Origin: Citrus sinensis
Taxonomy: Eukaryota > Streptophyta > Magnoliopsida > Sapindales > Rutaceae
NCBI RefSeq assembly: GCF_022201045.2
Contig: NC_068560.1
Span: forward strand, 29,715,501 to 29,779,500
Reading direction: 5' to 3'
DNA length: 64,000 nucleotides
The notes below the pieces were generated by a model that was not told the DNA's origin, made no database searches, and saw only the letters and a program-made list of their open reading frames with translations. The position numbers and the translations under genes are program-made. Shown here one piece after another: positions 36,250-44,038 of the stretch (positions are counted from its first letter, which is position 1; the number at the start of each line of letters is the position of its first letter).

Positions 36250-36543
36250 ATGAGCACAAAATTGACCACCACAGATCTTCCTCATCATCTAAAACCTGAA
36301 GAAATTTCAGCAACAAACATACCCACCTCCGAATTTTCCCAGAAAACAATTTTAGACATCTTGAACACAAAATGCCACACTTCTTGGCAACATCTAAAGC
36401 AGGCTCATGCTGTGATATTAAAGAGTGGACACTTTCAAGACCATTATGTGTCTGGCACTTTGGTCAAGTGCTATGCAAATTCTCGCTTCAGCAACTTGGA
36501 ATTGACCTTGAAGGTCTTTAATAGTGTGCATAAACCAAATGTT
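36250..36543 (+). pseudogene. DYW-type PPR gene, 5' fragment, cut off by the copia insertion
   Basis: ATG at 36250 opens a reading frame whose first 98 codons look like the start of a plant PPR protein (HLKQAHAVILKSGH, then YVSGTLVKCYA). The gene frame is lost at 36544, where the copia element begins; a few LTR-encoded residues then run to a stop. The reading frame resumes in the same register after the second target-site copy at 42325-42329, so this and 42325-44038 are one gene split by the element. Confidence 0.88.
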
Positions 36544-37175
36544 TGTTGGAGAATTATGAGAATATGGAGGCAAAGAACAATGAAATTTCTTAGGATTTGA
36601 GACGTGTTTACACACTTTCCTTTAAGGTTTTATTTGCCCTCACCAATCTTGGTTTGCTATAGAGTTTTAATGGCAAATTACCCCCAAGATATATCAAATC
36701 CTGAATACAATCTTTAGCAAATAAGATTGTATTTCCAGAACAAGCATGAAATCTTCAAAATCTGATTTCTAATCTTATTGTATGTCTTTCTTTTTATGAA
36801 TAAGATGTTTATTTGAAAGAATACAACCATTAGAAATGGTACTTCTTCGAAAAAACTCTTTTGGTTTGAGAAAGCATCGATTTACAATTGAAATCTTTTC
36901 AATCTTGCTAACCGTTTTCCAATTGACAACTTTCTGGAAATAAACGGTTAGCCGTTTTCTCAATAAACGGTGAGCCGTTTATTCTAGGACATAAAACATG
37001 CTCTCTGGACTTAAACGGTAAGTCGTTTTCACCATAAACGGTGAGCCGTTTATTCCAGAACAAAAACATGCTCTCTGAACTTAAACGGTTAGCCGTTTTC
37101 TCAATAAACGGCAACCCGTTTTCGTCCAGAATATCAAACCAAACAAACTTGAAAGATGTTACAATCTCTCTTACA
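36544..37175 (-). repeat. copia 3' LTR
   Basis: This is the left-hand LTR, which is the 3' LTR for a minus-strand element. In plus orientation it begins TGTTGGAG and ends CTCTTACA. It is the same length as the other LTR, with no indels seen. Confidence 0.95.
36938..37128. repeat. 70-71 bp tandem array of AAACGG/CCGTTT near-palindromes in the LTR
   Basis: About 2.8 copies of a 70-71 bp unit (taaacgg at 36941, 37012 and 37082). Each unit has two 16-nt near-palindromes of the form AAACGGTTAGCCGTTT (six-base arms, four-base centre), six in all. The same array is in the other LTR at 42087-42277. In element orientation it lies in U3. AACGG/CCGTT is the core bound by plant MYB3R proteins (the MSA element), so a cell-cycle-linked enhancer is possible (inference). 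Confidence 0.88.
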
Positions 37176-37841: not shown

Positions 37842-40800
37842 TCATTGTTTCACATATTCATGTCTTAAGCTAATATGTCTAGACTTTCCATTATACACTT
37901 TATTATAAGCTCTAGACAATGTAGCTTCACTGTCGCAGTACAAAGAAATAGATGGCATCGGTTGTGGCCACAACATTATATCAAACAACAAATTTCTCAG
38001 CCATTCTGCTTCTTTGCCTGCAGATGCAAGTGCTATAAACTCACTTTCCATTGTTGAATGAGTTATGCACGTTTGTTTCTTTGAAGCCCAAGAAACCGCT
38101 CCTCCAGCAATTGTAAAAATCCAACCAGAAGTGGATTTATTGTCTCTTGTATTGGTTATCCAACTAGCATCTGAATATCCTTCCAGTACTTCAGGATAAT
38201 CATTATAAAACAAACCCAAATTAACGGTCCTTTTAAGATAACCAAGTATCCTACCAATTGCTTTCCAGTGTTCAACACTAGGGTTACTCGTGAATCTTGA
38301 CATTTTGCAAACTGCAAATGCTATATCAAGCCTCGTACAATGCATAGCATACATCAAGCTACCAATTGCACTAGCATATTCTAGTTGAGCTACTATTCGG
38401 CCTGAATTCTCTAGTAATTTAATACTAGAATCATATGGGGTATTAGCTTCTTTAAATTTCAAATAATTGAATTTAAGAAGCACTTTCTCTATATAATGAG
38501 ATTGACACAACGAGTAACCCCCACTATGTTTATTCACTTTGATACCTAAGATAGTATCTACTTCACCAAGATCTTTCATCTTAAATTGTGAAGTTAAATA
38601 CTTCTTTGTATCATCTGCTCCTTGCATATTTGTTCCAAAGATAAGCAAGTCATCAACATACAAGCATATAATCACACCAAAATCATTCGTATATTTAAAA
38701 TATACACATTTATCAGCATTATTATGCTTAAAACCATGTGATAAAATTACCGAATCAAACTTCTCATGCCATTGTTTTGGTGCTTGCTTTAAGCCATAAA
38801 GAGATTTGATTAACTTGCATACCTTTTTCTCATTTCCAGGCAAAACAAATCCCTCAGATTGTTCCATATAGATTTTTTCATCAAGATCACCATTAAGAAA
38901 AGCTGTTTTAACATCCATTTGATGCACATATAAATTGTTCAATGAAGCAATTGCAAATAGCACTCTTATAGAAGTTAACCTAGCTACCGGAGCATATGTA
39001 TCGAAATAGTCAATACCATTTCTTTGCTTAAACCCTTTGGCTACTAATCTAGCCTTAAAAGTTTGCAAAGAACCATTATTATTGTACTTTCTTCTAAATA
39101 CCCATTTGCTGCTAATTGGTTGAGATCCTGGAGGAAGATCAACCAAGACCCATGTTTGATTCGACATTATCGAATCCATTTCATCATTTACCGCCTCTCT
39201 CCAAAAAGAAGCGTCTCTAGAAGACATAGCCTCGCTAAATGTCTTTGGATCTTTTTCAATATTTAACAACAATGGTACTTTGTTAAGTACATTCTTTCTA
39301 TCCCCTTCAACCAAGAAGAGTAGTGCTTGTGATGAAATAAAATCCGGTGCTAAACTTTTTTCTTTCTTTTCACGTTGACTCCTCCTTAGTTCGAAAGATG
39401 TCGTAGACTCTTTCCTTTTATTATTGTTAGTGGAGGTAACAGGAGTATTAACACATGATTGATCAATAATTAATTCTGATTCAATATTAGAATCATGTTG
39501 AAATTTATTCTCAATAAATTCAACATCTCTAGATTCCACAATCACATTAGAATTTAAATCTAACAACCTATAAGCCTTGGAATTTTCAGCATATCCTACG
39601 AAAACACTTTTTATACCTCTAGCACTCAACTTTGACGACTTAGGGTCATGTATTTTATAAAAGGCTAAACAACCCCAGACCCTTAAATACATCAAGTTTG
39701 GTTTTCTTCCTTTCCAAATTTCATAAGAAGATATATGTGTTTTCAAAGATGTAATTCTGTTATGAATATGACATGCAGTGAGTAATGCTTCCCCCCACAA
39801 ATTATTTGGTAGTTTTGCATTAAGGATCATGGAATTTATCATATCCGTGAAGATCCTATTCTTCCTTTCAGCCAAACCATTTTGTTGAGGAGTAAATGGA
39901 GCTGATCTTTGGTGAATAATTCCAACTTCCTCACAATAATTATTAAATTCAATTGAGAAATATTCACCACCTCTATCACTACGAACCATTTTGATTTTCT
40001 TATCTTTTTGGTTCTCAACTTCAGCTTTGAAAATTTTAAATTTATCAAAAGCTTCACTTTTTGTTCTAAGTAAATACACATAAGTGTATCTAGAACAATC
40101 ATCAATAAAAGTGATAAAGTATCTCTTACCTCCTCTTGTTAAAATGCCATTATACTCATAAATATCAGTATGTATCAAATCCAATATTTGAGTATTTCGT
40201 TCAGCTTTAGGAAAAGGTTTCTTAGTTATTTTAGCTTGGATGCAGATTTCACACTTATGACCTTTAACATCATTGCAATTAATCAAACCATGCTTAGACA
40301 TGTATTTCAAAGATCTAAAGTTCAAATATGCTAATCTAGCATGCCAAACATCACAAGACTCAACAATATAAGCTAAGTTGATATTATTATTATTAATGCT
40401 GAGTTTGTACATTCCATCACAAGAATACGCTTTCCCAACAAATAATCCATTCTTTGACACAATACAAGTATTACCCTCAAGCACAATCTTAAGCCCATGC
40501 TTACACATACAACTAGCAGAAATAAGATTCTTCCTAACGGAAGGTACATGAAAGACATTATACAATGTGACTTTTTTTCCAGAAGTGAAGTTGATCTCAA
40601 CTACTCCTTTCCTTGCTACTATGGCTGCATTATTGTTCCCCATGAGAACCATTTGTCCTTCCGTTTCTTCTTTGTATGATAAGAAAAATTTCTTATCATT
40701 ACAAACATGAATTGTTGCACCCGAATCGAGCCACCAATCATAGGACTTAGTTTCAGCCATATTGGTTTCAGTAATCATGCCAATTTGCATTTCAGAAACC

Positions 40801-41666
40801 ATAGCACAAATCTCTTCAGATTTGTTTTCAATAACATTAGCTTTATGGGAATTCACTTCTTCCTTTTTCTTCTTGAATCTGCAATCACTTTGGCGATGAC
40901 CTTTCTTACCACAAAAGAAACAATTTTCAGAAAACTTTTGTGTGCTGGATTTCTTGAATTTCTTGTCATTCTTGACTTTAAAATTCTTTGAGAATTTACT
41001 AGCTTCAACAACATTAACTTTAGTATAATCATGCTTATCCTTGGATTCACGAGACCTAGTCTCTTCTTCAATTACCAAGTGTTTTTGTAATTCTTCTAAA
41101 GTTATGTTCTCTTTACTATGAAGGAGTTTCTTTCTATAATCATTCCAACTTTGAGGCAATTTAGCAATAATAGCCCCAACTTGAAATGATTCAGAAATTT
41201 CAACTTTTAACTCTCGAAACTTAGCAACAATAATTTGTAACTCATGTATTTGATCAAGAATGGATTTTGTGTCTACCATAATAAATTCAAAATATTTAGA
41301 TACAAGGAATTTGTCAGTACCTTTTTTCTCCGTTTTGTATTTGTATTCAAGAGCATTCCAAATTTCCACCGGAGAAGTCATAGAATTGTAGAGATCATAT
41401 AATCTGTTAGAAAGCGTATTGAGTATGTGACCCCGGCATATCAATTCATCATCTTCACGACGTTTCCTTGCAGCCTTAACAACTTCGGTATCATCTTCTC
41501 TTGGTTCTGGAAATGGTTCCAATTTCGGATCAAGAACATATGCCACTTTAAGAACAGTAAGGAGAAAGAACAATTTTCCCTTCCAACGAGTGAAATTAGT
41601 TCCATCAAAACGATCGAGATGGACACTAGGATTCAGAAATGATGTCAAACTCTTCTCAACCTCCAT
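37842..41666 (-). CDS. copia gag-pol polyprotein, C-terminally truncated by a nonsense codon
   Basis: A single ORF of about 1274 aa from ATG 41666. Domains with rough positions: gag/UBN2-like 1-230; zinc knuckle [14 protein letters not shown] about 250; aspartic protease [10 protein letters not shown] about 313; integrase zinc region [10 protein letters not shown]...CEIC about 445-475; integrase core with the D, D and E residues ([25 protein letters not shown]) about 495-610; reverse transcriptase with YVDD about 1010; RNase H (GYSDASW, STMESEF) to the end. The stop TGA (37842-37844) falls after HEYVKQ. The same frame continues without another stop for 54 codons to TAG at 37677-37679 and carries the expected NLADPLTKGL motif, so the tail was lost to a point mutation. 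The second His of the integrase HHCC motif appears as Tyr. Activity in its present form is doubtful. Confidence 0.92.
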
Positions 41667-41677
41667 TTGCACAAAAT

Positions 41678-41690
41678 TAAAACCTTAAAG
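41678..41690 (-). other. candidate self-complementary primer binding site of the copia element
   Basis: In element sense, CTTTAAGGTTTTA starts two bases after the LTR end. It is exactly complementary to the LTR segment at 41769-41781, which reads TAAAACCTTAAAG in the element RNA and lies close to the predicted transcript 5' end. No TGG-starting tRNA 3'-end complement is present between the LTR and the gag ATG, a gap of only 26 nt. Confidence 0.55.
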
Positions 41691-41692
41691 AT

Positions 41693-42324
41693 TGTTGGAG
41701 AATTATGAGAATATGGAGGCAAAGAACAATGAAATTTCTTAGGATTTGAGACGTGTTTACACACTTTCCTTTAAGGTTTTATTTGCCCTCACCAATCTTG
41801 GTTTGCTATAGAGTTTTAATGGCAAATTACCCCCAAGATATATCAAATCCTGAATACAATCTTTAGCAAATAAGATTGTATTTCCAGAACAAGCATGAAA
41901 TCTTCAAAATCTGATTTCTAATCTTATTGTATGTCTTTCTTTTTATGAATAAGATGTTTATTTGAAAGAATACAACCATTAGAAATGGTACTTCTTCGAA
42001 AAAACTTTTTTGGTTTGAAAAAGCATCGATTTACAATTGAAATCTTTTCAATCTTGCTAACCGTTTTCCAATTGACAACTTTCTGGAAATAAACGGTTAG
42101 CCGTTTTCTCAATAAATGGTGAGCCGTTTATTCTAGGACATAAAACATGCTCTCTGGACTTAAACGGTAAGCCGTTTTCACCATAAACGGTGAGCCGTTT
42201 ATTCCAGAACAAAAACATGCTCTCTGGACTTAAACGGTTAGCCGTTTTCTCAATAAACGGCAACCCGTTTTCGTCCAGAATATCAAACCAAACAAACTTG
42301 AAAGATGTTACAATCTCTCTTACA
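41693..42324 (-). repeat. copia 5' LTR (promoter LTR)
   Basis: This is the right-hand LTR, driving minus-strand transcription. Reading minus, the U3 carries the AAACGG/CCGTTT array (about 42277-42087). A TATA-like TCTATAGC follows at about 41811-41818, and the likely transcript start lies 25-30 nt further on, near 41785. Confidence 0.9.
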
Positions 42325-44038
42325 ATGTTTTTGTATGGAATAGTATTCTCAGAGCTTACTTAGAGCATAACGAGCCATGGAGGGTGATATCTTTGTATTC
42401 TGAAATGGTGGGTGTTGATTCTAAGCCTAATAAGTTTACTTATCCAACGGTGTTTAAGGCTTGTAGCATTACTGAAGCTGATAAAGAAGGGGTGCAAGTT
42501 CATGCCCACGTGGTGAAGAATGGACTTTGTGGTGATGTGCACGTAAAAAGTTCTGGAATTCAAATGTATGCTTGTTTTGGTTGTGTAAATAAGGCAAGAC
42601 AGATTCTTGACGATGGTTCAAAATCGGATGTTATTTGTTGGAATGCTTTGATTGATGGGTACTTGAAATGTGGAGATATTGAAGCTGCAAAAGAGTTGTT
42701 TAAGAGTATGAAAGATAAAAATACTGGCTCTTATAATGCAATGATAAGCGGTTTTGCTAGGTTTGGTAGATTTGAAGAAGCAAGAAAATTGTTTAATGAG
42801 ATGAATGATAAAGATGAAATCACATGGAGTGCTATTATTGATGGTTATACCAAAGATGGGTACTATAAAGAAGCATTAGAAGTATTTAATGAGATGCAGA
42901 GAGATAAAATCAAGCCAAGGAAATTTGTTCTCTCATGTGTGCTAGCTGCATGTGCAAGTCTGGGGGCTCTTGATCAAGGGATATGGATTCATGACCATGT
43001 CAAGAGAAATTCTATCTGTGTGGATGCAGTGCTGGGGACTGCTTTGGTTGATATGTATGCTAAATGCGGGCGTCTTGACATGGCATGGAAGGTTTTTGAG
43101 GACATGAAAATGAAAGAAGTATTTACTTGGAATGCCATGATTGGAGGGCTTGCTATGCATGGCAGAGCAGACGATGCAATTGAGCTTTTCTTCAAAATGC
43201 AAAGGGAAAAGATGAGACCAGACAGAATCACTTTTGCTTGTGTTTTAAGTGCTTGTGCTCATGCTGGGATGATTGATCGAGGTCTACAGGCTTTGACTTA
43301 TATGCAGCAAATGTATGGTATTGACCCTGAAGTGGAGCACTACGGTTGTATTGTAGACCTTCTCGGAAGGGCAGGGTATTTAGCTGAGGCAGAGGAAGTT
43401 ATAAGTTCAATGCCAATGGAACCGAATGCAGCTGTTTGGGAAGCACTTTTAGGCGCTTGTAGGAAACACGGAGAGGTTGAATTCGGCGAGAGACTGGGGA
43501 AGATTTTGCTGGAGATGGAACCACAAAATAGTGGACGATATGCCTTGCTATCAAACATCTATGCAAAGGAAGATGCGATGATGTTGCAAAAATGAGGAAG
43601 TTGATGAAGGAAAGAGGAATAAAGACAAATCCGGGAAGTAGTATGATCGATGTGAACGGTGTCATTCATGAATTCAGAACGGGAGACGGATCACACCCAC
43701 AAGTGAAGGAAATTTACTTGATGTTGAAAAAGATCATTGAGAAGCTGAAGATGGAAGGCTATTCACCAAATTCCTCCCAAGTTTTGTTTGATATTGATGA
43801 GGAAGAGAAGGAAACTGCACCCAAGTACCATAGTGAAAAGCTAGCAATTGCTTTTGGATTCATTAACACTAATCCTGGAGCAACCATCCGTGTTATAAAG
43901 AACTTGAGGGTGTGTGAGGACTGCCATTCTGCTACCAAACTTATATTTAAAGTATTCAAGAGGGATATAATTGTGAGAGACCGTGTTCGGTATCATCATT
44001 TTAGAAATGGTAAATGTTCTTGTAATGATTTTTGGTAA
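42325..44038 (+). pseudogene. DYW-type pentatricopeptide repeat protein, 3' part, frameshifted
   Basis: This continues the PPR frame interrupted at 36543. It contains a series of PPR motifs (DVICWNALIDGYLKCGD, NTGSYNAMISGFARFG, EVFTWNAMIGGLAMHG), then E/E+ motifs, a PG box (KTNPGSSMIDV) and a DYW deaminase domain with HSEKLAIAFG and CEDCH, ending CSCNDFW. A 1-bp deletion near 43568 breaks the frame: the first frame stops at 43593-43595, while the DYW part is open in the next frame (GRCDDVAKMRKLM). DYW PPR proteins specify C-to-U RNA editing sites in plastids or mitochondria; the target here is unknown. With both the insertion and the frameshift, this copy is probably dead. The terminal tripeptide is DFW rather than DYW. 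Confidence 0.88.

Follow-up and report, generated by a model that had tools for sequence, protein, structure and literature searches.

Self-priming of reverse transcription is described for long terminal repeat (LTR) retrotransposons of the Tf1 and Tf1-sushi type, found in fission yeast, other fungi and vertebrates. In these elements the element's own RNA, and not a tRNA, pairs over 11-15 nt with a primer binding site (PBS) adjoining the LTR. Tf1, a Ty3/gypsy element, primes with the initial 11 bases of its own RNA (PMC7175516). Among plant copia elements, self-priming has been predicted for the TAR lineage of REXdb, which includes Houba and Osr-1, by Neumann et al. 2019 (PMC6317226), a paper that also cites an earlier self-priming proposal for these two elements. 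Here, we focus on a Ty1/copia retrotransposon on the minus strand of a 64,000-nucleotide stretch of the Citrus sinensis genome (NC_068560.1, positions 29,715,501 to 29,779,500; the whole stretch is called the window). The element most likely belongs to the TAR lineage and appears to prime reverse transcription with its own RNA, a reading to which we assign a probability of about 0.75. Self-priming in this element is strongly supported, because the complementary segments co-vary across four families, shuffled sequences never reach the observed complementarity, the site is conserved, the self-priming families split from others in a reverse transcriptase (RT) tree, and nearly all other Citrus copia leaders sampled carry a tRNA-Met site. 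The initial annotation of the locus regarded the Tf1 geometry of self-priming as unusual for a plant copia element; self-priming as such had already been anticipated by the TAR prediction.

The locus shares with the TAR lineage a copia-type pol, a 5-bp target-site duplication and a PBS complementary to the element's own 5' LTR. A TAR self-primer is recognized by at least 10 bp of complementarity to the 5' LTR, starting 0-5 bp past the LTR (PMC6317226), and here there are 13 nt at offset 2. In the accessible text of that paper the self-primer is given without a position relative to the cap and without a hairpin, whereas in the present element it appears to be internal and held in a hairpin. The element resembles Tf1 in the pairing of its own RNA with an LTR-adjacent site in place of a tRNA, but it is of the copia type and its primer seemingly lies well inside the leader. 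It is similar to the fungal copia element GalEa, with its Conserved Hairpin Site, in having no tRNA PBS and a hairpin near the priming site. However, the GalEa palindrome includes the last LTR base and the available text reports no complementary segment in the unique 5' region (U5), whereas here a complementary LTR segment exists (PMC5445492). No description of an internal or hairpin-held self-primer in a plant copia element was found in the text examined of the open-access papers searched.

Complementarity between the leader and the LTR

The features that form the proposed priming site are:

42324-41693, minus strand: 5' LTR, 632 bp, TG...CA
41781-41769, minus strand: proposed self-primer TAAAACCTTAAAG, inside the 5' LTR, with its expected 3' end at 41769
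41692-41667, minus strand: leader, 26 nt, with the ATG at 41666
41692-41691, minus strand: AT spacer between the LTR end and the PBS; a second AT lies at 37177-37176, before the 3' LTR
41690-41678, minus strand: self-PBS CTTTAAGGTTTTA, 2 nt past the 5' LTR, exact complement of the primer

Both the exact 13-nt complementarity between these two segments and its coordinates are as the initial annotation gave them, and a tRNA site of the TGG type is indeed missing from the 26-nt leader. A gag search of the Citrus sinensis genome yields at least 151 matches (150 of 1814 candidates were scored). Their identity falls in steps: family A, to which the window's element belongs, lies at about 73-100% in the longer matches, D at about 55%, B at about 44% and C at about 38%. 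Scans of viral contigs for relatives in other hosts gave none. The 40 relative 5' pieces comprise 13 of family B, 15 of C, one of D (L066), six A-like pieces and five without a readable element start (L069, L076, L128, L134 and L139); the LTR segment is missing from L071 and L135 (family B) and from L075 and L130 (family C), which are left out of the counts.

Each family has a perfect complement between its leader and its own LTR: CTTTAAGGTTTTA in A (13 nt), CTTAAGACGTTATTT in B (15 nt), CTTAAAACAGATTTA in C (15 nt) and CTTAAAGCATTAATT in D (15 nt). The PBS starts 2 nt past the LTR end in the A, B, C and D copies compared, while its letters differ between families. For A, B and D the LTR ends were placed by comparing 5' with 3' LTRs; in family C, where the 3' piece stops short, the end is deduced from the common ...ACA-AT. 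When the upstream 450 nt are shuffled with dinucleotide composition preserved, the observed run is reached in 0 of 2000 shuffles per family, with maxima of 11, 11, 11 and 13. At control TGGTATCAGAGCC sites the match spans 3-5 nt when it must begin at the TGG, and 4-7 nt when the start may shift by the same 0-5 nt (of 15 control pieces, 14 are long enough; L089, with 31 bases, was dropped). Swapping partners between families gives the same picture: own PBS-primer pairs have energies of -17.4 to -20.3 kcal/mol and all other pairs -1.3 to -12.8, the primer of the same family is the best partner for every PBS, and among the 24 possible assignments the true one ranks first.

Variation within family A delimits the site. 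Both 13-mers are exact in 42 of the 45 aligned copies (rows judged by eye; L129, whose LTR is unalignable, was dropped). The mean non-modal fraction is 0.002 in the PBS, 0.007 in the primer and 0.016 in the block of the hairpin 5' arm described below; it rises to 0.058 in the U5 between primer and PBS, and to 0.154 in the leader right behind the PBS, where small indels are frequent. The boundary of the PBS is sharp, with variation beginning at nt 14. In tRNA-primed elements the PBS is rewritten from the tRNA end in each cycle, and the 13-nt boundary is what would be expected of a PBS rewritten every cycle from a 13-nt primer tail.

The initial annotation had named co-variation of the two segments among family copies as a check. 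The segments do change together between the four families, but within family A both hardly vary. Compensatory change within a single family was considered as proof and set aside: the A 13-mers are nearly invariant, and several of the changes in B and C fall at CpG or CHG sites, which decay on their own. The self-priming reading proposed for the locus is nevertheless upheld by the joint differences across four families, the sharp 13-nt boundary and the lack of the tRNA-Met word among relatives.

Transcript start and predicted primer hairpin

Two further features bear on where the primer lies in the RNA:

41812-41805, minus strand: TATA-like TCTATAGC, in the apical part of the predicted hairpin
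41839-41767, minus strand: predicted hairpin, with its 5' arm at 41839-41821 and the primer as its 3' arm

The initial annotation placed the primer at the 5' end of the mRNA, as in Tf1, behind a TATA-like sequence at about 41818-41811. The TATA-like sequence is present, a few bases away from that position; the geometry is probably wrong. Counted from the primer 3' end, all 11 family B copies have a TATA box at -314 to -316, 8/13 family C copies have TATAAAAA at -224 to -235, and family D has a TATA box at -243. Transcription starts about 30 nt after a TATA box, and from the positions in B, C and D, including the divergent ones given below, the primer would lie about 100-290 nt inside the RNA. 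These TATA boxes make it improbable that the primer forms the mRNA 5' end.

The likeliest alternative keeps the exact Tf1 geometry, with the primer as the first mRNA bases and TCTATAGC as the TATA box. It draws on family A, in which CTCTATAGC is kept in 41/45 copies (by eye), the TATA of CTCTATAGC begins 29 nt before the primer and a clear TATA box further upstream is missing. We consider it unlikely. In B, C and D the TATA boxes stand for the most part 224-316 nt ahead of the primer's 3' end, with none at the corresponding place, and TCTATAGC has no counterpart in the aligned sequences of these families. Moreover, such a transcript would leave out the upstream hairpin arm with which the primer pairs.

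As to that hairpin, a block running from ATC(C/T)TG to TTAAGGA upstream of the primer is common to the four families (TTAAAGGA in A). In the predicted fold of each family the primer pairs with the start of the block, and the pairing is closed by UCYU/AGGA-type pairs beside a small mismatch. In the structural register, set by eye, positions 1-5 above the mismatch pair in 4/4 families, and at positions 3, 4 and 5 both sides of the stem change. Of 49 distinct blocks, 43 fold with the primer paired to the upstream arm (A 21/25, B 9/9, C 11/13, D 2/2; the second D block is the 3' LTR of the same element, and L048 is outside the count). With the primer fixed and the upstream block shuffled, a region chosen after the fold was seen, this pairing is reached in 11, 0, 4 and 33 of 2000 shuffles for A, B, C and D. 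The predicted hairpin with the primer as its 3' arm is moderately supported in families A to D.

In one D element (L066, L083), the 5' and 3' LTRs differ on both sides of a stem pair, A-U against G-C. Both differences are at CpG sites, and decay may therefore mimic compensation.

Several observations weigh against self-priming by an internal, hairpin-held primer. The sample consists of four families in one genome. Among copies having both parts, runs of at least 11 nt are left in 6/11 of family B and 7/13 of family C, and runs are shorter in the other 5/11 and 6/13, which we interpret as age. A double change in the C copy L122 could be two separate CHG deaminations, since L131 has the primer change alone. 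With respect to the transcript start, family D has a second TATA candidate at -142; among C copies, L127 has a TATA at -128, L125 has TATATATA at about -158, L065 has its TATA at about -306, and L122 and L133 have no TATA box within the piece examined. Family A has no clear upstream TATA, only weak candidates at -179, -74 and -42. Plant copia LTRs are described as having a short repeat (R) region (PMC3601003), which fits poorly with a long leader ahead of the primer. With respect to the hairpin, an energy as low is found in 180, 0, 32 and 410 of 2000 shuffles (A, B, C, D), the folding energy is mildly below that of shuffles (mean z -1.15, -1.88, -0.62 and -0.35), and the family A arm pairs slightly better with the B primer than with its own.

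tRNA priming and lineage

The tRNA-Met PBS TGGTATCAGAG is present in 17/18 other Citrus copia leaders sampled and absent from the window leader. It is likewise found in 0/40 relative 5' pieces, so that no relatives with a normal tRNA PBS, which the initial annotation had named as evidence against self-priming, came to light. A decayed tRNA-Met site was rejected as an explanation on the same count.

A second alternative holds that the complementary pair is a structural RNA element serving packaging, dimerisation or circularisation, whereas the actual primer is a tRNA that binds at another place or through an internal segment. In its favor, retroviruses have long-range pairings around the PBS. 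Half-tRNA primers exist in other copia lineages: Bianca uses a half tRNA-Ile, and Osser, Bryco and part of Gymco-II a half tRNA-Met, while tRNA-Met itself primes most elements of the remaining copia groups (PMC6317226). In the present families, however, the complementary site is exactly at the place expected of a PBS, one tRNA cannot fit four different sequences, and the sharp edge at nt 13 fits a copied primer tail. The longest exact complement of the leader among 20 Citrus tRNA genes is 6-7 nt (six isotypes: Lys, Ile-TAT, Cys, Asn, Arg and Thr; no Met). This alternative is accordingly quite improbable. Chance complementarity in an element whose tRNA site was deleted could appeal to the shortness of the leader (26 nt), but it is hardly credible given the same layout in four families and shuffles that fail in each of them.

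With regard to lineage, RVT_2 (PF07727), rve (PF00665) and gag domains are annotated in the protein P0008, which is 98% identical in the RT stretch. The integrase precedes RT in the window open reading frame (order by eye), as in copia-type pol. The Ty3/gypsy chromovirus pol that defines the Tf1/sushi group is not what is seen here; the polyprotein is of the RVT_2 type and aligns with copia RVT_2 rows.

The RT sample was 20 pieces among the 150 RVT_2 matches listed, with 5' pieces for 18 of them; in these 18 control elements leader and RT pieces are paired by distance only, and they form about 10 clusters in the tree. In the tree of 23 rows, based on RT alone, a branch with support 100/99 separates A, B, C and D from the 17 tRNA-Met rows, although the program warns that long branches meet near the A-D group. 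The B row is a B copy other than those whose leaders were examined. The C row is L180, the same element as L064; L159 is near-identical to the tRNA-Met row L149, another element, and hence not family C. L171, the partner of L151, has a PBS of neither type, and L151 is kept in the tree unlabelled. TAR membership is likely, because self-priming was predicted for TAR (PMC6317226), 10 families of TAR elements are reported in Citrus (PMC6466647), and A-D split from the tRNA-Met rows in a tree of Citrus elements.

Element anatomy and the proposed priming cycle

The remaining features of the element are:

37175-36544, minus strand: 3' LTR
42329-42325 and 36543-36539, minus strand: target-site duplication AACAT, 5 bp, at both element flanks
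37184-37176, minus strand: polypurine tract AGTGGGGA plus T, adjoining the 3' LTR; families B-D are alike
41666-37842, minus strand: gag-pol frame, 1274 codons counted from the ATG

Over 632 aligned bases there are 5 mismatches between the two LTRs, and the insertion is therefore fairly recent. The pol frame of the window copy ends early at a stop, at 37842, near the end of RNase H, whereas in some relatives an uninterrupted gag-pol frame extends further, to as many as 1367 codons; the window copy may thus depend on other copies. In 4/4 families an AT follows the 5' LTR end and another AT, behind a G-rich tract, precedes the 3' LTR start. The paired AT would fit a linear complementary DNA with two extra bases per end that are trimmed by integrase.

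Three repeats of 66 nt, spaced by about 70 nt and bearing AAACGG / CCGTTT motifs, occur in each LTR (42079-42285; 36930-37136). They lie upstream of the hairpin and are possibly a repeated promoter or enhancer module. By translations judged by eye, the element seemingly sits within a DYW-type pentatricopeptide repeat (PPR) gene (36250-36600 and 42384-44038, plus strand), whose frame is interrupted at the target-site duplication and resumes on the other side; near 43592 the frame changes once more. Fragments of a gene resembling a pectinesterase, judged in the same way, lie at 34827-33851 on the minus strand.

For self-priming in this element we tentatively propose the following cycle. Transcription would start well upstream, leaving the primer inside the 5' leader as the 3' arm of the hairpin. 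The primer arm would then leave the hairpin and pair with the PBS. Nuclease cleavage after ...TTAAG (TTAAAG in A), probably by the RNase H of the element as is the case in Tf1, would provide a 3' hydroxyl. The primer RNA 3' end ...CCUUAAAG would adjoin the new minus-strand DNA, whose synthesis would copy the AT first, followed by U5 and the downstream portion of R. Later, plus-strand synthesis would copy the 11-15-nt primer tail back to DNA, rewriting the PBS in every cycle. A tail copied in this way would keep the PBS matched to the primer. A bolder version, which we rate as somewhat less likely than not, has TAR-type elements in general using such an internal self-primer: a cut within the 5' leader would free a capped, structured RNA of about 100-290 nt, with a 3' tail that is kept in a hairpin resembling a tRNA acceptor stem until it unfolds onto the PBS and primes. 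Hairpin, primer and PBS would then evolve together, each family inventing its own priming code. An internal, hairpin-held primer is a plausible new variant of self-priming.

In the literature examined, as far as its accessible text goes, self-priming of plant copia elements has so far been predicted from complementarity alone. Co-variation across four families, together with the sharp boundary of the site, raises this prediction to a strong inference. Should the primer prove to be internal and held in a hairpin, self-priming would comprise more than one mechanism, and an element could use its own leader to imitate a tRNA. If true, this would bear on the escape of LTR elements from dependence on host tRNA, as well as on annotation pipelines that seek a tRNA PBS.
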